Source: a virus. Taken from it: a stretch of 26,403 nucleotides of DNA. The position numbers and the translations under genes are program-made. The DNA lies in the IMG/VR virus record IMGVR_UViG_3300008954_000238, positions 1-26,403 of that record; one strand, written 5' to 3'. Of this stretch, positions 4,210 to 25,454 are shown one piece after another. The notes under the pieces are model-generated. The model worked only from the letters and a program-made list of their open reading frames with translations, was not told the origin of the DNA and made no database searches. Every line of letters begins with the position of its first letter. Position 1 is the stretch's first letter.

Positions 4210-4428
4210 ATGCTAGTACCCCCAGAATACAAACTTACACAAAAGCAAAAGGACACTTATTCAAGTTCTCAGACGGAAGTCGAAAAGAGAAAAGCGAGCG
4301 AGCGAATCAAGGAGGATATACGAGTTTTTTTGCTAAACGACAAAAATAAAATTCAAAAATTAAACTCTAATGAGTTTGGCTATAATCCGCTAAAAGCAAA
4401 TAAAAAGCAAAAAGCTATGAGGCTTTAA
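4210..4428 (+). CDS. Hypothetical 72-aa charged protein
   Basis: Start ATG 4210 with TAGGAG 6-7 nt upstream, one of the better ribosome sites in this part. The protein is Lys/Glu/Gln-rich, predicted mostly helical, without cysteines or membrane segments. The C-terminal portion is basic (NKKQKAMRL). No family recognised. It sits between the YbcO-like gene and the Q-like antiterminator. Its last codons form a weak AAAGC...GCTTT hairpin followed by a short T run (4411-4435), which may attenuate transcription before the Q-like gene. Confidence 0.5.
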   Translation: MLVPPEYKLTQKQKDTYSSSQTEVEKRKASERIKEDIRVFLLNDKNKIQKLNSNEFGYNPLKANKKQKAMRL

Positions 4429-4974: not shown

Positions 4975-5244
4975 ATGACTAAAGAGCAATACATTAGTTT
5001 GTTTTTGCCTGCACTTTCAAAGGTTGCTGAGAGGTGTGTTGAAAATGAAAAAAAATATTTCGAGGGTCTAAGGTATTCTCCACATCACGGCCTAAAGGCA
5101 ATAGGGCATTTATCCAAGTCTATGCGTAGTATTAATGATGAAAACACAAGCCACGCGGTCGCTGCTGCATACAATTCTCTGATGATGGTACTTTATGAGG
5201 AATGTCCGCAAATAGGGGATAGAGATATATTTAAAACATTGTGA
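4975..5244 (+). CDS. Hypothetical 89-aa helical protein
   Basis: ATG 4975 with GAGGGGT about 7 nt upstream. The protein is almost wholly helical, with YSPHHGLKAIGHLSKSM followed by NTSHAVAAAYNSLMMVLYEE. Paired helices carrying HH, H and SHAxAAxxN recall all-helical NTP pyrophosphohydrolases (MazG-like, DUF5664-like), but the acidic EExxE metal motif is not clear, so I do not assign that function. No membrane segment. It lies just after the Q-like gene. Confidence 0.5.
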   Translation: MTKEQYISLFLPALSKVAERCVENEKKYFEGLRYSPHHGLKAIGHLSKSMRSINDENTSHAVAAAYNSLMMVLYEECPQIGDRDIFKTL

Positions 5245-5385: not shown

Positions 5386-6413
5386 AATACGAGAAATTAC
5401 TACCATACGCAACGGACAGGCAAAAAGAAGTTTTACACGCCTGTATTGATTCAGATACACAAGCAGACGCGGCCAAGCTGCTTGGGTTAAAAAGCACTCG
5501 CTCACTTGAGCGCACGCTGGCCAGAATAAAAAAGAAACGCGGCGAAGCAAAGGAAGAAGGAGAAAACATATTCTCTGGAAGGGTTCACGCGATGATACCA
5601 GACACGCAGGTCGCGCCAGACACGCCCATAGATCATTTGGCATGGATTGGTGAATATCTATCCGAGATTAGGCCAGATGTAATAGTTCATATAGGCGACC
5701 ATGCTGACATGGAGTCGTTAAGTAGTTACGACTTTGGCAAGAAAGCATCAGAGGGGCGCAGAGTTATTAATGATATAGATTCTGCAAATAAGGCTTTCAA
5801 GCTACTATCTAATCCCATATTAGGAGCTAAAGGATACAATCCAGAACTTCATATCACGTTAGGCAATCACGAGCACAGGATTGATCGACATTGCGAAACT
5901 AACGCAAATTTAGAAGGCTTTCTCAGTACCGAAAACCTAAACTACAAGGATCTTGGCTGGGCAGTTCACCCATTCCTAAGACCTGTTGCTATTGATGGAA
6001 TACAATATTGCCACTATTTCTATAACCCGAATTCTGGCAGACCTTACGGCGGTGAGTCGCTAGAGACAAGACTCAAAAACATTGGATTTTCTTTCACGGC
6101 TGGACACGAGCAAGTCTGTAAGGTTGCAACTAGACCACTAAACAATGGCAAGATAATACGCGGCTTAGTGCATGGCGTTTGTTATTTGCACGATGAAGAC
6201 TACAAGGGGCCACAAGGGAACACACAAAAGAGGGGAATCATAATCAAGAATGAAGTTTTCGACGGTAATTATGACTTGATGGAAGTCTCACTCGATTATC
6301 TATGCCGAAAATATGAGGGTATTAATCTAAGCGACTTTATGAGGAAGAAATATCCAGACATTTACCATCAATCGGCGTGGCTTCAGATGCTTGACGCTAG
6401 AAAGGGGTTATAA
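5382..6413 (+). CDS. Calcineurin-like metallophosphoesterase with N-terminal HTH
   Basis: A 343-aa protein. Residues 1-52 form a homeodomain-like HTH (QADAAKLLGLKSTRSLERTL). Residues about 68 on carry the metallophosphatase motifs in order: PDTQ (73-76, the D-x-H position modified to D-x-Q), GDHADMES (105-112), GNHEHR (161-166), CHYF (210-213) and AGHE (240-243). These ligate two metals in calcineurin-like phosphoesterases. The substrate is unknown; related phage proteins are usually annotated as phosphoesterases, possibly acting on nucleotides or DNA ends. The HTH fusion suggests DNA or RNA targeting. It overlaps the 34-aa duplicate by 4 nt and is followed by an AT-rich spacer with a promoter. 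Confidence 0.85.
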   Translation: MKYEKLLPYATDRQKEVLHACIDSDTQADAAKLLGLKSTRSLERTLARIKKKRGEAKEEGENIFSGRVHAMIPDTQVAPDTPIDHLAWIGEYLSEIRPDVIVHIGDHADMESLSSYDFGKKASEGRRVINDIDSANKAFKLLSNPILGAKGYNPELHITLGNHEHRIDRHCETNANLEGFLSTENLNYKDLGWAVHPFLRPVAIDGIQYCHYFYNPNSGRPYGGESLETRLKNIGFSFTAGHEQVCKVATRPLNNGKIIRGLVHGVCYLHDEDYKGPQGNTQKRGIIIKNEVFDGNYDLMEVSLDYLCRKYEGINLSDFMRKKYPDIYHQSAWLQMLDARKGL

Positions 6414-17375: not shown

Positions 17376-17749
17376 AGAAATCTTACCGGAAGATAAGGGA
17401 AATAATAACGCAGAAAGAGGCTTTCCACATGGTGTCAAATGATACCGATATGGAAAACTTCACACCAAACCCTCAAGCATATTACTTTAGAGAGGGTAAA
17501 AACTTAGTTTGGTATGAGCCGCGCGGGTATTCCTTGGAAATGTTCGGGGTGGTTATGCATAGACCTAAAAAACCAGTATCTAAAGTCTATAAGCAGTGGG
17601 AATACTTAAAGGGTCTTGGGTTTTATTCTGTTTATGCAACGGTTGATAAAAATAATTTAAAGTCGGCAATTATGTGTCGCGCTTTTGGCATGAGTAAAAT
17701 TGAGTGCGAAGGCTCAAAAAATATATATAAAAGGGTGATTTATGGGTAG
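17366..17749 (+). CDS. GNAT-like protein, T7 gp13-type (probable)
   Basis: Up to 127 aa. The C-terminal third reads KQWEYLKGLGFYSVYATVDKNN followed by AIMCRAFGM, the strand-helix pattern of GNAT acetyltransferases (last strand after an N-x-x-S/A-x-x-x-x-x-x-x-G-F/M turn). T7-like phages carry such a protein (gp13 family) next to the internal virion proteins. An acetyl-CoA P-loop (R/Q-x-x-G-x-G/A) is not evident, so enzymatic activity is doubtful. The start is uncertain. TTG 17366 has no ribosome site but includes an IREIITQKEAF segment that looks like the GNAT first strand/helix. ATG 17429 has AGAGG at 9 nt but would lose that strand. Confidence 0.5.
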   Translation: MVLEKSYRKIREIITQKEAFHMVSNDTDMENFTPNPQAYYFREGKNLVWYEPRGYSLEMFGVVMHRPKKPVSKVYKQWEYLKGLGFYSVYATVDKNNLKSAIMCRAFGMSKIECEGSKNIYKRVIYG

Positions 17750-18758
17750 TCAGGGCGGCGATGGCGGCGCTTCAATAGAGGCAGCAAGAATACAAGCACA
17801 GGCAGCGGAGCGTGTGGCGCAACTTCAAGGTGATGCAGGGCTTGAGGCGGCGAGACTGCAAACTGAGGGCGCAAGAGAAGCGCAGCAATTGAACGCGGCG
17901 TTAACCCGCGAGGCAATAGACGCGCAAAACGCCCAGTTCTATTATACAGACCGAAGGTTTCAACCATTTGTGGATGTTGGCCGTAATGCTATATCTGACG
18001 TGAACGCGGGCGCAGATATTGACGGCTTTTCTAACAGGCTAGATCAAATTATGGCTACCGATCAATTCCAAGGTCTAAGAGATCAGCGGCAAAGATCAGC
18101 AGACGCCCAATTATCCGCTGCGGGACTCACTAGGAGCGGGGCGGCAGCACAAGCAGCGGCGGATATAGACACAGACTTAGCATTAGCATTAGAGGGTCAA
18201 CTTTTTAGCCGTAGCGCGGACAATTTAAGAGTTGGCCAAGCATCAGCCGCGCAAGTTGGGGCGGCGGGCGCTAGTAATGCATCTTCAATTGGCGGAATTT
18301 TAAGCGGCGCAGCGGGCCAGCAGTCAAATTTATTACTTCAAGGGGCAAATGCGGCAGCGGGCGGAGTTACTAACCAAGCTATAGCAGCCGGGAGCGGCAT
18401 TCAAGGGGCGGCAAATGCAATGGCAAGTGGCTTAATTAATCAGTCAAACGTTCAGCAGCAAAACAGGCAAAATAGAAATAATATGTTTTTACAGACTGGC
18501 TTGGCAGTAGCTCAAATCTTCTCAGGCTTCTCAGACGAAAGGCTAAAAAAGAACATGAAAAAAATCGGCAAGGTCAAAGACTTAAATTTGTATGAATGGG
18601 ACTGGAAAGAAGACGCCAAGGACGTGGCCGGGTGTGATATGAGTACAGGATTCAAAGCCCAAGAAGTAAAAGAAAAGTATCCAGAGTGCGTGTACGAGGC
18701 CAAAGGTTTTCTGGCCGTTGACTACTCAAAACTAATAGAGCAAATGGAGGCGGCGTAA
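17742..18758 (+). CDS. Ejection-type protein with C-terminal S74-like chaperone domain
   Basis: A 338-aa protein at the P22 gp7 position. ATG 17742 has AAGGGTG at about 6 nt. Residues 1-240 are Ala/Gln/Gly-rich helices (QLQGDAGLEAARLQTEGARE). An IATA/GAA-rich low-complexity section follows. From residue 264 the sequence is FSDERLKKNMKKIGK, then YEWDW and GFKAQEVKEKYPECV, ending VDYSKLIEQMEAA. This is the Peptidase_S74 / intramolecular-chaperone pattern (S-D-x-R-L-K with the catalytic Ser at 264 and the EV...P...VDY...L end). If active, it would release the last 75 residues. S74 domains are best known in tailspikes; an ejection protein with one suggests virion assembly dependent on self-trimming. 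The stop shares a base with the next start. Confidence 0.75.
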   Translation: MGSQGGDGGASIEAARIQAQAAERVAQLQGDAGLEAARLQTEGAREAQQLNAALTREAIDAQNAQFYYTDRRFQPFVDVGRNAISDVNAGADIDGFSNRLDQIMATDQFQGLRDQRQRSADAQLSAAGLTRSGAAAQAAADIDTDLALALEGQLFSRSADNLRVGQASAAQVGAAGASNASSIGGILSGAAGQQSNLLLQGANAAAGGVTNQAIAAGSGIQGAANAMASGLINQSNVQQQNRQNRNNMFLQTGLAVAQIFSGFSDERLKKNMKKIGKVKDLNLYEWDWKEDAKDVAGCDMSTGFKAQEVKEKYPECVYEAKGFLAVDYSKLIEQMEAA

Positions 18759-19966: not shown

Positions 19967-21702
19967 TGAACATTGCTGAAATTCGGGAAAAATACCCGCA
20001 ATATAGCGACCTGAGCGACGAACAACTCGCTCGCGGCCTTCACGCTAAACATTATTCAGATTTGAATTTTGATGACTTCTCGCAAAGGATAGGTTTATCG
20101 AAAGAACCAACACTTACAGAGCAGACTTTTGACCAGTCAAAACAATCATTCCTTAACCCTTTGGGCGCTAAAGGTGCCATCACTGGCGAAGGCGAGGATT
20201 TAGTAAACCAAGTCGGTCAGGGTGCCACGTTTGGATTTTTAGACGAGGCTCAAGCCGGCCTTTATGCTGCGCTTGGCGTTGGCCTCCCTGAATCACTAGG
20301 GGGCTTGCCTGAGGGTGTGGGCTACTCTGAGGCATACAAAGGCATACGTGAAGAAATACGAGGCAAAAATAAGGCATTTGAGGAAGAAAACCCAAAAACA
20401 GCGGTAGCGGCTCAAGTGGGTGGCGGTCTTGCTTCTGGCGGTCTGTCAGCAATTAAAACTCTTGACAAGGTTGGCGATGTTGCTGCACTTGCAGACGCAT
20501 CCAAAAAGACTAGACAAGCCGTTCAAGCTGCAAAAGTGGCGGGTGTGGCTGGTGCTCAAGGTGCTGTGGCTGGGGCTGGATACAGTGAAGGCGACACTTT
20601 AGGCGAGATCGCCGAAGATTCAGCCAAGGGCGCAACAGTGGGCGCTCTTGTAGGTGCTGGAGGTCAATTAGCAGTAAAGGGAGCTAAAGAGGTGGCCAAA
20701 TCTAAAGCAGCCAGAAAAATAGCGGCTGAAGCCTCCGAGACAGTGGAGAGTCTCAAAAATGAATCAAAAGAGCTATACGATCAAGTTAAAAGTGAATCGT
20801 TAACCAAGCAGGCTTATGGCAAAATGTTGTTAGATGTTGAGCGAAATCTGAAAAAGGCAGGTTATAGGCCAGCGCAACACGCTGGAATTAAAGCGGCTCT
20901 AAAGGACATGAAGAGTGAAAAAGGGAAAGCAGTTTCCATCGACACAGTGGAGCAATTAAGGCGAGCTATACGCGACACAGGCGGCGATATTGGCTCAAAT
21001 GACGCGAGACTTGCAAAAGTGGCCACAAACAAGATTGATGACTTTATCGAGAACATACCAGAAAAAGCAATTGCAGGTGAAAACGCTCAAACAGTATCAA
21101 CCAAGCTGAAGGAGGCGCGCTCGCTGTGGGGCAGAGCTAAGAAGGCGGAAATGATCGAAGACCTGTTTGAAGGCGCTGAAGTGCAAGCGTCTGGCATAGA
21201 AAACGGACTAAGAATAAAGGCTCGACAGATATACAACAACCCAAGAAAAAGAAAGCAATTCAGCAAAAAAGAGCAGGAAGCAATTAAATCGCTTGCTAAT
21301 GGCACAAGCGCAGAAAACATATTGAAAAACATTGGTAAGTTCGGTGTAAGCGGCGGGCATCAGGGGCAAGCTTTACTCCCTATTCTTGCAACTGTTATTG
21401 GTGGCCCTCAGTTTGTTATAGCGGCCAGTGTAGCTAAAAAGGTGGGGGAGAAATCAACCCAGAAGCGCGCCCAGAACTTGCAAAGCCTAATACTAAATAA
21501 GGGTGACGTCAATTCAATAGCAAGAATTTATGTTGGCAACGTTCCCAAGGCTCAGCAAAGTGCACAAGAGCTTTCTGAAATAATTAAACACGGGAAAGAG
21601 GCGGATTTATTGAAAATTAGTAACTCGAAGAATCAGACGCTACAAGAGGCGGCAATTATCGCGCTAGGCTCTACCACCAGCGCCCAAACAGCTTTGCCAT
21701 AA
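19966..21702 (+). CDS. DNA ejection protein (P22 gp16-like)
   Basis: A 578-aa protein. The N-terminus IAEIREKYPQYSDLSDEQLA and the YSDLNFDDFSQRIGL that follows match a common short domain at the start of phage internal/ejection proteins. Residues about 65-240 hold several Gly/Ala zipper segments (GQGATFGFLDEAQAG, VGGGLASGGLSA, GAQGAVAGAGYSEGD) able to insert in or span membranes. From 240 on it is helical and charged. A second Gly/Ala/hydrophobic stretch occurs near 460-480 (LPILATVIGGPQFVIAASVA). It probably forms part of the trans-envelope channel for DNA entry, as P22 gp16. It is the last gene of the ejection set; its end overlaps a minus-strand gene by 32 nt. Confidence 0.72.
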   Translation: MNIAEIREKYPQYSDLSDEQLARGLHAKHYSDLNFDDFSQRIGLSKEPTLTEQTFDQSKQSFLNPLGAKGAITGEGEDLVNQVGQGATFGFLDEAQAGLYAALGVGLPESLGGLPEGVGYSEAYKGIREEIRGKNKAFEEENPKTAVAAQVGGGLASGGLSAIKTLDKVGDVAALADASKKTRQAVQAAKVAGVAGAQGAVAGAGYSEGDTLGEIAEDSAKGATVGALVGAGGQLAVKGAKEVAKSKAARKIAAEASETVESLKNESKELYDQVKSESLTKQAYGKMLLDVERNLKKAGYRPAQHAGIKAALKDMKSEKGKAVSIDTVEQLRRAIRDTGGDIGSNDARLAKVATNKIDDFIENIPEKAIAGENAQTVSTKLKEARSLWGRAKKAEMIEDLFEGAEVQASGIENGLRIKARQIYNNPRKRKQFSKKEQEAIKSLANGTSAENILKNIGKFGVSGGHQGQALLPILATVIGGPQFVIAASVAKKVGEKSTQKRAQNLQSLILNKGDVNSIARIYVGNVPKAQQSAQELSEIIKHGKEADLLKISNSKNQTLQEAAIIALGSTTSAQTALP

Positions 21703-21871
21703 CTTGGTCATATTCATATTCGCTCATATCAGAATGGCTGTAAAACTTATCGTGTATTTGGATGATTACTAACCACATACCAGAGAGAAACCCAAAGGCC
21801 AATCCAGTGATCAAATAAAACTTCATTAGCCCGGCGGCGCATCCAATTAGTCCAATTATAATTCTAATCAT
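21671..21871 (-). CDS. Small inner-membrane protein, moron (immI-like position)
   Basis: A 66-aa protein. Residues 2-15 (IRIIIGLIGCAAGL) and 19-38 (YLITGLAFGFLSGMWLVIIQ) are hydrophobic and likely membrane helices. The C-terminal ~28 residues are polar (HDKFYSHSDMSEYEYDQVMAK). It is the only clear minus-strand gene, and its 3' end overlaps the gp16-like gene convergently. P22 and relatives carry the immI/sieA island between gene 16 and the tailspike gene, and SieA is a membrane exclusion protein. By place, direction and membrane nature this may be a superinfection-exclusion or similar lysogenic conversion gene. No sequence similarity to SieA is visible. A promoter lies directly upstream and the mRNA appears leaderless. 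Confidence 0.6.
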   Translation of the reverse strand: MIRIIIGLIGCAAGLMKFYLITGLAFGFLSGMWLVIIQIHDKFYSHSDMSEYEYDQVMAKLFGRWW

Positions 21872-21906: not shown

Positions 21907-21982
21907 TAAACGGCTCTCTTTTAAAGGTTGATGGTTAGTTTAATTCTAAATAGAGCACAAAATAAAAATTTTAGAGAAAAAA

Positions 21983-23152
21983 ATGAATACAGCATTTCGT
22001 CGCAACGCTTTTATATTTAAAGCCAACCCAAAAGATATTGAAAATGACAAATTACCTATATTGATCTTAGTTACAGGGCAAAGTAATTCGCTAAATTCTA
22101 CGACACCCGGCGTTACTGGAGACGGCGATGTTCAAGATCACCCGAACATTTGGACTTATGAACATTTTCCCGATGTGGATCAGACGCAAGGCTGGAAATT
22201 TGGTTTTAAAACTTCTCCTGATTATCCAATAGATCCGGGCGTAGGGAATGCGTTTGATTATCATGTAGCAAAGCATTTAGAAAAAACAACGGGGAGACCT
22301 GTGCTGATTGCCAAACAGTCGGCAGGGGGGCAAGGTGTGGCAGAATGGCTTCCTTCGGGCGGAGGAATTCCCGGCGCGACTGGCTCAATGTTTTCCTCAG
22401 TCTCAGCCATGTTTGAAGCGGCTATCGCTGCGCCTTTGCCATTTAGGAGAGACAATAAGAGCCTTATTGATTTAGGAATTAGCACAGCGGACTATATGTT
22501 ATGGCATCAAGGCGAAGCAGATGCAGACTATAGGCCAAATCCGGCAAGAAATGGTGAGGGCGAATACATAGAGACTTTTAAATCTGTTTTAAGTGTGTTT
22601 TTAAATCCCTCTATAAATGGATCGTCTGCCGCGCCGAAGATAAATGAAAATACTCAAATTGTTGTTGGTGAGCTATTAATAGGCGGAAATTCTGCTGGAA
22701 ATCCAACAGATGACAGAAATACAGACCTAGAGAGGATTGCATCACAAATAGAAAATGTTAGTTTTGCAAATTGTGGCAATTTAACCTCAACAGATGGTCT
22801 GCATTTTGACAATGACCAAGCGCCAAGAATGGCCCAGAAATACATTGAAGCCTTGAGCCGTCGCTCAATTGCATCAGAGTTTGTTAGTCCCAATGAATTT
22901 TGTATCGATAAATCTTCAAATACTTGGATTTTTCGAGGATTAGTTAACGTTTCGCCTAGTTCGTCTGTTTCGGTAACCCTTCCCAAAACATTAGTGGATT
23001 CTGGTTTTACGGTCTCTATGGACACATCAACTTCATTAGAAAAGTTCCCGAGCATAAGCGGCAAAACCTCCACAGGCTTCACTATAAATAACGGCAACTC
23101 CGCTAATAGCGCCGTCGTGAGATGGACTGTTATTTCGAGGGTATCTTTTTAA
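21983..23152 (+). CDS. Tail protein with SASA/SGNH esterase domain
   Basis: A 389-aa protein. The start MNTAFRRNAF is a short tag shared with other genes here. The SGNH/SASA (sialate O-acetylesterase-like) catalytic blocks are present in order: GQSN (Ser34), a Gly-rich oxyanion loop (KQSAGGQGVAEW, about 110-120), WHQGEAD (174-180), and DGLHFD (Asp271, His274). It should remove O-acetyl groups from host surface polysaccharide during adsorption, like deacetylating tailspikes of other podoviruses. The C-terminal ~90 residues are beta-strand-rich (LVNVSPSSSVSVTLPKTLV), probably a trimerisation or binding tip. The ribosome site is weak (TTAGAG, 7-8 nt). Confidence 0.8.
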   Translation: MNTAFRRNAFIFKANPKDIENDKLPILILVTGQSNSLNSTTPGVTGDGDVQDHPNIWTYEHFPDVDQTQGWKFGFKTSPDYPIDPGVGNAFDYHVAKHLEKTTGRPVLIAKQSAGGQGVAEWLPSGGGIPGATGSMFSSVSAMFEAAIAAPLPFRRDNKSLIDLGISTADYMLWHQGEADADYRPNPARNGEGEYIETFKSVLSVFLNPSINGSSAAPKINENTQIVVGELLIGGNSAGNPTDDRNTDLERIASQIENVSFANCGNLTSTDGLHFDNDQAPRMAQKYIEALSRRSIASEFVSPNEFCIDKSSNTWIFRGLVNVSPSSSVSVTLPKTLVDSGFTVSMDTSTSLEKFPSISGKTSTGFTINNGNSANSAVVRWTVISRVSF

Positions 23153-23185
23153 ATATAAATATTTTAAAAATTTTCGAGAAAAAAA

Positions 23186-23719
23186 ATGGAAAGAGCATTT
23201 AGCAGGCGATTATTTACAGATAACAAAGCGACCGATTATGTAAACTTTGGGTTTATAGATTACAACGACACTAGCGGTAATATAAGTTTAACTTCTGGCC
23301 AATGGGAGACAATACCCAATAACGGGCAAGGGTCATTTTCTAATAGCCAATTCAGGCCGAAAGATGTAAATGAATTAATGGATTCGTCCACAGGAGCGTT
23401 AGACTTTACTTCTCTAAGTTTAGGCGATATAGCTTTAATACGAAATGATTTTACAATAACGCCGACTCAAAACAATGGCGGTGTAGAATTTAGATATGTT
23501 TTAGGCGACATCAACAATCAATATACGCTGGAGACTAGACTTGGCCGAATGGATAATGGTAGCGGCGTTCCGTACAGGTTTTCATTAAACACACAAAAAA
23601 TATACATGGGCGACTTAAACACAAAAGACAATCCTGTTGTTTTGCAAGTAAAATCTAGCGTTCCCGCTGTTTTAAATAATGCTGGGTCGGTTATTACGGT
23701 TTTAGGGCTTAAATCATGA
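23186..23719 (+). CDS. Beta-rich tail fibre/receptor-binding protein
   Basis: A 177-aa protein with the same N-terminal pattern as the esterase (MERAFSRRLF), followed by a strand-rich domain: LTSGQWETIPNNGQGSFSNSQ, DFTSLSLGDIALIRNDFTIT, GGVEFRYVLGD and YRFSLNTQKIYMGDL. The alternation is compatible with a jelly-roll of the TNF/C1q type seen at tail-fibre tips; this is inferred from pattern. The upstream sequence (TTTTCGAGAAAAAAA before ATG) resembles that of the esterase gene. The stop overlaps the next start as ATGA. Confidence 0.6.
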   Translation: MERAFSRRLFTDNKATDYVNFGFIDYNDTSGNISLTSGQWETIPNNGQGSFSNSQFRPKDVNELMDSSTGALDFTSLSLGDIALIRNDFTITPTQNNGGVEFRYVLGDINNQYTLETRLGRMDNGSGVPYRFSLNTQKIYMGDLNTKDNPVVLQVKSSVPAVLNNAGSVITVLGLKS

Positions 23720-24999
23720 TTAAAATATACAAAGATTCGACAGCTAACGCGATATTCATAGAAGATGCAAGCGGCGTTCAATTTTTAAACTCTTTGCAAG
23801 CAACAATATCGGGAGATAATTGCAGCGTTTCGGACTTGGCGAAAAATATCGAGATTGTAACAAATGCTGCACCGTCTGAGTTTGTTGACGATAATGGAAA
23901 CTCTTACGGCGCCGATGCTACCGAAGTTTGCAACGCGCTCAATGCAATATTTCAAGCAAGCGGCACTCCTAGCGGTTCCGCGCCCTCTATAACGTCCGCT
24001 TTAACTATTTCTTTGACACAAGGAGAGACTATAAACTATGAGTTGACGGCCAGCTTTGGCGTCGGCTATGAATGGGACTTGTCTAACGTTTCAGGCGTTT
24101 CAACAGTTGAGGGAAATGTTAGAAAGCTTATCGGCGGCTCATCCTTAGCTGTAGGAACTTACAATATACCAGTCAAGGCGATAAATTACAACGGCGAAGA
24201 CTCTCAAACGATAGTTTTAACAGTTTCAACACCGCCTTTTGCAAACACTAAAAGCGTTCAATTTGACAACCAAGATTGGGCCGGGGCAAACGCTTCGTTG
24301 TTGGATGGTGTTTTGGGCAGAACCTCAAATGGTTCCGGATCGGGTGACGCTTGGACGATTCAATTCTGGTATAAAGCAAGTAGCGCAAGTCAAGGCCAGG
24401 TCATTTTTTATTTTGGAAACAATGACATTCAAAACCAGGGTTATATCCAATTAATGCAAGTAAACTTATCAGGCGGTAAAGGTTTGAGATTGAGATATGG
24501 CACAAACAACAATAATTTAAGGATTCAAACAACCGCCGGAAGCCTTGTTTCTGGAAATTGGCATCATGTTGTTTTCACCTATGACGGCGGAACGACCGGC
24601 TCAAGTAGTGCGGATTTGAACGACTACTATTCAAGATTTAAGATATTTATAAACGGCGCCTTGCAGACTACGAACAACAGTCAAGGAAATTATGGATATA
24701 CCGGCTCAGTAATAGGGCAAAATTTAAGAATTGGGCGTTTTGTTAGTGGTAACTATATGAGGACGGCAAATGTTGACGAATTGGCCGTTTTTGATAGTGA
24801 TCAAAGTTCAAATATTTCTGATCTATACAACAGCGGCGCACCGTTTGATTTAATGACTTTGACAACAAAACCCAAGCATTGGTGGCGAATGGGTGACGGA
24901 GATACTTATCCAAACCTACAAGACAGAGGAACAGAGGAAAACTGCACATTTGTCATGTATAACATGACTAGCGCGAATATTGTTAGCGACGTACCATAA
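23716..24999 (+). CDS. Tail adhesin with Ig-like and LamG (concanavalin A-like) domains
   Basis: A 427-aa protein. Residues 1-90 are an unassigned strand-rich base (DDNGNSYGADATEVCNALNA resembles short phage fibre attachment domains). Residues about 95-170 resemble a putative Ig-like (He_PIG) domain: ALTISLTQGETINYELTASF, ending QTIVLTVS. Residues about 175-380 match the LamG/pentraxin family, with WTIQFWYKASS, GNWHHVVFTYDGG, FKIFINGALQTT, IGRFVSG and VDELAVFD in the usual order. LamG domains bind sugars or proteins, suggesting surface recognition. It lacks the MxxAFxxxxF tag of the two preceding genes. Confidence 0.75.
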   Translation: MIKIYKDSTANAIFIEDASGVQFLNSLQATISGDNCSVSDLAKNIEIVTNAAPSEFVDDNGNSYGADATEVCNALNAIFQASGTPSGSAPSITSALTISLTQGETINYELTASFGVGYEWDLSNVSGVSTVEGNVRKLIGGSSLAVGTYNIPVKAINYNGEDSQTIVLTVSTPPFANTKSVQFDNQDWAGANASLLDGVLGRTSNGSGSGDAWTIQFWYKASSASQGQVIFYFGNNDIQNQGYIQLMQVNLSGGKGLRLRYGTNNNNLRIQTTAGSLVSGNWHHVVFTYDGGTTGSSSADLNDYYSRFKIFINGALQTTNNSQGNYGYTGSVIGQNLRIGRFVSGNYMRTANVDELAVFDSDQSSNISDLYNSGAPFDLMTLTTKPKHWWRMGDGDTYPNLQDRGTEENCTFVMYNMTSANIVSDVP

Positions 25000-25006
25000 T
25001 AGAAAA

Positions 25007-25111
25007 ATGAAATTATCATTCAAGCAAAAATCATTTAAGTCAAAATCTTTTGAAAAGAAAGCATTTTCACGTCAAGCGTTTAAGAAGAAATCTTTTCAAA
25101 GGCCACAGTAA
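25007..25111 (+). CDS. 34-aa peptide with Phe every fifth residue
   Basis: ATG 25007 is followed by 34 codons to TAA 25111. The peptide consists of pentads in which position 4-5 is Ser/Ala-Phe: Phe occurs at residues 5, 10, 15, 20, 25 and 30, with Lys/Arg/Gln between (for example KSFKSKSFEKKAFSRQAF). It is strongly basic. Its first ten residues fit the pattern of the two tail proteins upstream (Phe5, Phe10, Ala/Ser at 4). The ribosome site is weak (TAGAAAA), as for those genes. It could be an adaptor or membrane-active peptide. No known family. Confidence 0.55.
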   Translation: MKLSFKQKSFKSKSFEKKAFSRQAFKKKSFQRPQ

Positions 25112-25133
25112 TTAATAAATACAAATAATTTAC

Positions 25134-25454
25134 ATGAGTTTAAGAAAAAAACAAAGCAAATTTTGCAAAATGGTGGCGCTGTTAATCTTACATGCAGAAC
25201 AGCTTGGTTACGAGGTCACTTTTGGTCGGGCCTACTCAAGCCCAGAGGCAAACAAGGCCGACGGCGGAATTGATGGCAGTTTGCACACTCAGCGACTAGC
25301 AATTGATTTGAATCTATTTAAAAACGGTAAGTATTTAATCAGCACTATCGACCATGAACCGCTTGGTGTTTATTGGGAGGCTATCGGCGGGAGCTGGGGC
25401 GGTCGTTTTAACGATGGCAATCACTATTCATTAGAGCATAACGGTAAAAAATAA
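25134..25454 (+). CDS. Endolysin, M15-type peptidase (L-Ala-D-Glu or D-Ala peptidase)
   Basis: A 106-aa protein. The start MSLRKKQSKFCKMVALLILHAEQ and GYEVTFGRAYSS are standard for phage M15C endopeptidases. The zinc site is H51 and D58 in SLHTQRLAIDLNLF plus H97 in NDGNHYSLEH, with E101/H102 nearby. GGSWGGRF is the conserved loop. It cleaves the peptide part of peptidoglycan at lysis. No signal peptide, so a holin is needed; none is recognisable nearby. No clear Shine-Dalgarno before ATG 25134, which is nonetheless the right start by homology. Confidence 0.88.
   Translation: MSLRKKQSKFCKMVALLILHAEQLGYEVTFGRAYSSPEANKADGGIDGSLHTQRLAIDLNLFKNGKYLISTIDHEPLGVYWEAIGGSWGGRFNDGNHYSLEHNGKK

Follow-up and report, generated by a model that had tools for sequence, protein, structure and literature searches.

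Short Phe-pentad N-termini on two tail proteins and a 34-aa peptide of an uncultured phage: a candidate modular attachment tag

Introduction

Phages change their hosts by exchanging receptor-binding parts, and the fitting of very different parts onto one tail is, to our knowledge, known in few phages only. The closest described systems are those of a few E. coli and Klebsiella phages. In the latter, Latka et al. (2019) found conserved N-terminal peptides, down to seven residues in length, on the second receptor-binding proteins (PMC6872550). In the same work N-terminal peptides of 7 and 11 residues were reported for the receptor-binding proteins of K1E, K1-5 and SP6, and the second receptor-binding protein of KpV767 was described as truncated to 69 residues, a 29-residue peptide included (PMC6872550). 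A paper of 2026 on KP32 uses the same model and terms the peptide an anchoring structure (PMC13082707).

Results

Gene content of the window

The window, that is, the whole stretch of DNA analysed here, is a complete virus record from IMG/VR, 26,403 bases long, possibly representing a partial genome. It contains virion genes coding for an Sf6-type small terminase, a large terminase, a P22-type portal, scaffold and coat proteins, a head-closure protein and ejection proteins including a gp7-like one. The phage is an uncultured, short-tailed one and appears to be a P22/Sf6-like podovirus. A search of IMG/VR by the portal found no close relatives of the virion.

The gp7-like DNA-ejection protein (17742-18758) carries a C-terminal Peptidase_S74 intramolecular chaperone domain (PF13884), which is odd for an internal protein. 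Between the ejection and tail genes there is an ORF on the minus strand (21671-21871) coding for a hydrophobic 66-aa product, possibly a membrane protein, with no Pfam hit. The intergenic motifs TATAAATA and TACAAATA (23152-23165 and 25116-25127), located 5' of the fibre and endolysin genes, resemble T4-type late promoters and may be AT-rich chance occurrences.

The features of the tail region are as follows:

21965..21982, plus strand: leader AAAATTTTAGAGAAAAAA, immediately 5' of the esterase start (leader scan, up to 3 mismatches)
21983..23152, plus strand: putative tail-associated esterase (SASA/SGNH, PF03629; Pfam), body from about residue 25
21983..22012, plus strand: tag 1, MNTAFRRNAF, on the esterase (sequence)
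23167..23184, plus strand: leader AAAATTTTCGAGAAAAAA, just 5' of the fibre start (leader scan)
23186..23719, plus strand: fibre/knob protein of 177 aa, predicted TNF/C1q-like jelly roll from about residue 20 (homologues, model, fold matches)
23186..23215, plus strand: tag 2, MERAFSRRLF, on the fibre (sequence)
23716..24999, plus strand: LamG-domain protein (PF13385), partner of the fibre, without a tag
25007..25111, plus strand: basic 34-aa peptide with six [A/S]F pentads, MKLSFKQKSFKSKSFEKKAFSRQAFKKKSFQRPQ (sequence, composition)
25134..25454, plus strand: M15 peptidase-type endolysin (PF13539), downstream of the peptide

Shared N-terminal pattern and its expected frequency

The original prediction reported that the esterase, the fibre and the 34-aa peptide all have Phe at residues 5 and 10 and Ala or Ser at residue 4. 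When the sequence was re-checked, the three N-termini, their coordinates and their residues all proved correct, and the pattern is present in the three proteins alike. The tags of the window have [A/S]F at five-residue spacing, beginning within residues 1-5. The LamG protein, encoded between the fibre and the peptide, has no such tag.

Not one of 834 N-termini of background phages has the pattern M..[AS]F....F, which was present in four of 18,295 background ATG frames; in the AT-rich window, five of the 493 ATG frames have it, namely those of the three genes plus two in antisense orientation. Since the pattern was picked after the data had been seen, a pattern-free BLOSUM score was added. By this score the esterase and the fibre rank first among 666 pairs within the window, but the expected number of pairs as similar is about 0.6, and without the peptide the similarity of the two proteins is weak and not significant. 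Triples as similar as the esterase, the fibre and the peptide appeared 14 times among 6 million random triples, which in this unweighted test corresponds to a probability of 4.7e-5 within the six-gene tail module and of 0.02 across the window. It is unlikely that the three-gene pattern arose by chance.

The first alternative to be weighed is nevertheless coincidence, in which AT-rich phage genes, often beginning with codons for Ala or Ser, Phe and Lys or Arg, have provided two adjacent genes and an odd peptide that happen to align. The expected number of esterase-fibre-like pairs and the two antisense frames given above are in line with it, as is a scan of GTDB genomes for M-x-T-A-F-x-x-N-A-F, which yielded essentially chance matches only. 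However, the probability of the three genes taken together, the adjacency of the esterase and fibre genes with their common leader, and the six-pentad run of the peptide, which 1 million composition-preserving shuffles never produced, all argue against coincidence, and we consider it an unlikely explanation.

The 34-aa peptide

The peptide starts with an ATG at 25007, an alternative in-frame TTG being located at 24980, and has a pI of 11.4 and a charge of +10.5. The pentad repeat that had been described up to Phe30 is indeed there, with Phe at residues 5, 10, 15, 20, 25 and 30 and Ala or Ser before each, and the unit AFSRQAF, which had been noted as close to the tags, is the best match to both tail-protein tags. 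The Ala/Ser and Phe codons vary among the units mostly synonymously (TCA/TCT, GCA/GCG, TTC/TTT), which points to a protein-level constraint and not to a recent DNA repeat. No stable terminator hairpin was detected 3' of the peptide gene.

Searching INPHARED by tblastn gave no match to the peptide, which may be hidden there by the low-complexity filter of BLAST, and the 34-aa ORF is absent from the fibre-LamG cassette in other loci. A degenerate search for runs of five [AS]F pentads retrieved mainly antisense repeats and low-complexity frames, while an ATG-anchored pentad scan was largely noise with three plausible relatives. The pentapeptide repeat fold (PF00805), which like the peptide has a period of five with Phe, was considered and rejected on account of the wrong register and the lack of a Pfam hit: in PF00805 there is A at i-2, N/D at i-1 and L/F at i, whereas in the peptide A/S occupies i-1 and the residue at i-2 is mostly Lys.

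The peptide might also be unrelated to docking and represent a cationic lysis or envelope-disrupting (disruptin-like) peptide, or else a basic DNA-binding one, given its pI and charge, the M15 endolysin gene directly downstream, and Lys-rich ORFs of 26-27 aa found shortly after the LamG gene in two other phages. If so, only two tags would remain, which are not significant on their own by the pattern-free score. Set against this, a period of five is expected to yield neither an amphipathic helix nor an amphipathic strand, the AFSR unit that the peptide shares with the two tail proteins would have to be a coincidence, and Phe is missing from the Lys-rich peptides of the other phages; such a function is quite unlikely in our judgement.

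The two Lys-rich ORFs (MKYNTRG..KKKKK; 5774-5854 in locus L149 and 4271-4354 in locus L150) start 8-10 nt past the LamG gene, the distance for the window peptide being 8 nt, and in both loci a GC-rich, terminator-like inverted repeat follows.

Leader sequences of the esterase and fibre genes

The near-identical start region claimed for the esterase and the fibre was borne out: the leader AAAATTTT[A/C]GAGAAAAAA has exactly two sites in the window, each directly 5' of one of the two starts, with 17 of the 18 bases identical. With up to 3 mismatches allowed, no sites were detected elsewhere in the window, and the peptide start has no leader. GCA TTT codons are common to both tags, and the repeat D7 covers the start and codons 1-5. 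These three likenesses would suit a duplication of the 5' gene end, whereby the leader and first codons were copied together with the ribosome-binding region at insertion of the second body and the residues in common stem from expression signals or recombination and do not form a binding motif, but Phe10 has been retained despite the divergence of codons 6-9 and the peptide has the amino-acid pattern without the leader, so this explanation appears the least probable of those weighed here.

The esterase and fibre bodies

The assignment of the esterase as a putative SASA carbohydrate esterase is by family, with a PF03629 score of 25.0 bits against a cut-off of 24.8 and the blocks GQSN at residues 32-35 and HQGE at residues 175-178. 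Its only good relative, at locus L001, is 37% identical over the body and has a different, longer N-terminus. The AlphaFold model of the esterase, built from two sequences, had a pLDDT of 52 and was set aside.

For the fibre, alignments with homologues in INPHARED start at residues 16-25, and the N-termini of the homologues are coiled-coil, collagen-like or other. Sixty-three homologues from IMG/VR were sorted into 29 N-terminal kinds with one common boundary, G-F-I-D-Y-N-D; examples are MSIRNELLEQILAA, which is the commonest, MTIQHKDIPEAQLHDVKG and MSLLPHIVDKIVK, and MERAFSRRLF of the window is the sole representative of its kind in this comparison. Residues 1-20 of the AlphaFold model have pLDDT values of 49-58, while those of the body from residue ~20 are about 97, and the tag is predicted to be flexible. 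The fold matches of the body (Foldseek, VIA-align) include the short tail fibre of cyanophage A-1(L) with a Z-score of 11.9 and the Sf6 tail needle knob with 11.6. The body is thus modelled as a TNF/C1q-like fold whose top matches are phage receptor-binding knobs; as many TNF-like folds have nearly equal scores, the match names a fold and not a function.

The original prediction held that homologues of the two tail proteins without the ten-residue pattern would speak against a docking motif. The tag is indeed lacking in them, but because those homologues belong to other kinds of virion, swapped anchors are what would be expected of a docking tag.

In IMG/VR, 70 loci contain the LamG protein, with the fibre gene upstream in nearly all of those where the contig extends there; the protein is 62-63% identical between the window and the first two relatives read, and no LamG cassette was confirmed in GTDB genomes. 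The TNF/C1q-like knob and the LamG protein seem to constitute a mobile cassette (window 23186-24999; loci L149-L220), present on many phage contigs, some of them of other head and tail types, with 29 anchor kinds. In locus L159 an N-terminal anchor of ~35 residues is common to two tail proteins (MANYVITSTDNSFEV / MASFVITTNTASFEV), encoded by a fibre gene ending near 4998 and a 664-aa ORF beginning 31 nt after the LamG gene (~6321), which by sequence appears to be a further instance of two proteins sharing an anchor.

AFQ-pentad N-termini in other phages

Scanning IMG/VR for AFQxxAFQxxAF returned at least 120 matches. Among the matches listed, 87 of 105 ORFs have the start of the array at a residue offset of 1-5, the sequences that follow it form at least about 48-50 unrelated clusters, and 39 representatives can be aligned only over M-x-x-A-F-Q-x-N-A-F-Q-x-x-A-F-Q. 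A few of the tagged bodies listed match baseplate-wedge, virion-structural or LamG families. The gene preceding the tagged ORF, again among the matches listed, shares its strand in 86 of 94 cases and often codes for a tail-fibre or minor tail protein, with matches to phrog_13892 in 12 of 57. The listed loci (L280-L398, L234, L260 and L231) mostly adjoin tail genes. The AFQ tag has no family in Pfam or PHROGs and no sequence match in the PDB, and nothing relevant on NAFQ/AFQ tags was found in the phage literature.

The AFQ class and the window are alike in the M-x-x-A-F register, the period of five, the N-terminal position, the unrelated bodies and the tail-fibre neighbours, and differ in that the AFQ class has Gln after each Phe and Asn or Asp before Ala, whereas the window tags have Arg, Lys or Ser. 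Against the AFQ profile, a score as high as that of the esterase tag was reached by just 2 of 3884 background N-termini, while 112 and 370 of them scored equal to or higher than the fibre tag and the peptide, respectively. The esterase tag therefore resembles the class, though without Gln, and the fibre tag and the peptide are not members by profile score.

Unlike the window, each AFQ locus among the matches listed has one convincing tagged protein, and the idea that phages as a rule have several tagged proteins was rejected for the class. Short members with basic ends include those at L383 (40 aa), located after a fibre-type gene, and at L231 (49 aa, an AFS/SFQ variant), flanked by a gene of no known family, read as fibre-like, and by an endolysin-type gene. 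In position, the latter closely resembles the window peptide.

Discussion

The best reading of these data is that the ten-residue start of the esterase and the fibre may be a modular N-terminal attachment tag and the 34-aa peptide its body-less six-unit version, for which we put the probability at roughly one half. The modular docking motif proposed originally is supported, homologues of both bodies having other N-termini at the same boundary and the fibre tag being predicted to be floppy, but not proven. That the tag would plug into a tail component is suggested by the modularity and by published precedent; binding, a partner, multivalency and a place for the peptide in the virion are all inferred.

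The tag, M-x-x-A-F-x-x-x-[A/L]-F, would be short, flexible and basic; Phe5 and Phe10 would act as hydrophobic keys in a pocket of one tail component, and Arg or Lys would supply charge. One kind of site could thus accept two unrelated bodies, receptor-recognising or polysaccharide-modifying. The SASA esterase and the TNF/C1q-like knob with its LamG partner may have been acquired from other phages, the tag of the window virion replacing their former anchors. The peptide, with the same keys in six tandem units, might fill or bridge the same sites, which is a guess from its sequence.

A wider and rather doubtful extension is that Phe-pentad peptides ([A/S]F-x-x-x) constitute a docking code that is widespread among phage tails and so far undescribed, with one or a few units on dozens of unrelated tail proteins and with free multi-unit peptides serving symmetric tail rings as multivalent plugs or linkers. 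If the docking reading is true, a ten-residue sequence tag would reveal receptor-binding proteins in uncultured phages and would explain the movement of one fibre body among unrelated virions with its 29 N-terminal kinds. With the AFQ class, for which Pfam and PHROGs apparently have no entry, the docking question becomes testable on many phages.

Comparison with known systems

The window shares with P22/Sf6-like podoviruses the Sf6-type terminase, the P22-type portal and coat and the gp7-like ejection protein. A P22-type tailspike head-binding domain was not found on its tail proteins, and the tail end looks like a foreign cassette with short tags. The module proteins scanned gave no family hit to a T4 gp10-like branching or anchor domain, a scan that could miss divergent docking domains.

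The original prediction knew of no described system of this sort, which cannot be maintained, as short N-terminal docking peptides have been published (PMC6872550, PMC13082707) and the proposed mechanism is consequently of a known kind. In KP32/KP34 and in K1-5/K1E/SP6, N-terminal peptides of 7, 11 or 29 residues are present on differing receptor-binding proteins and are thought to dock on an anchor or adaptor. The window likewise has at least two proteins that by family and fold are putative receptor-binding or depolymerising ones, the SASA esterase and the TNF/C1q-like knob, plus the LamG protein, and the bodies are exchangeable behind the N-terminus, with 29 kinds on the fibre body and another N-terminus on the esterase body of L001. 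The KP34 peptide is hydrophobic (MALxxLV), whereas the window tags are basic Phe pentads, and the body-less element is a single truncated copy in KpV767 and a six-unit repeat in the window. What is new here, as far as could be found in the literature, is the Phe-pentad sequence type together with the free six-unit peptide.
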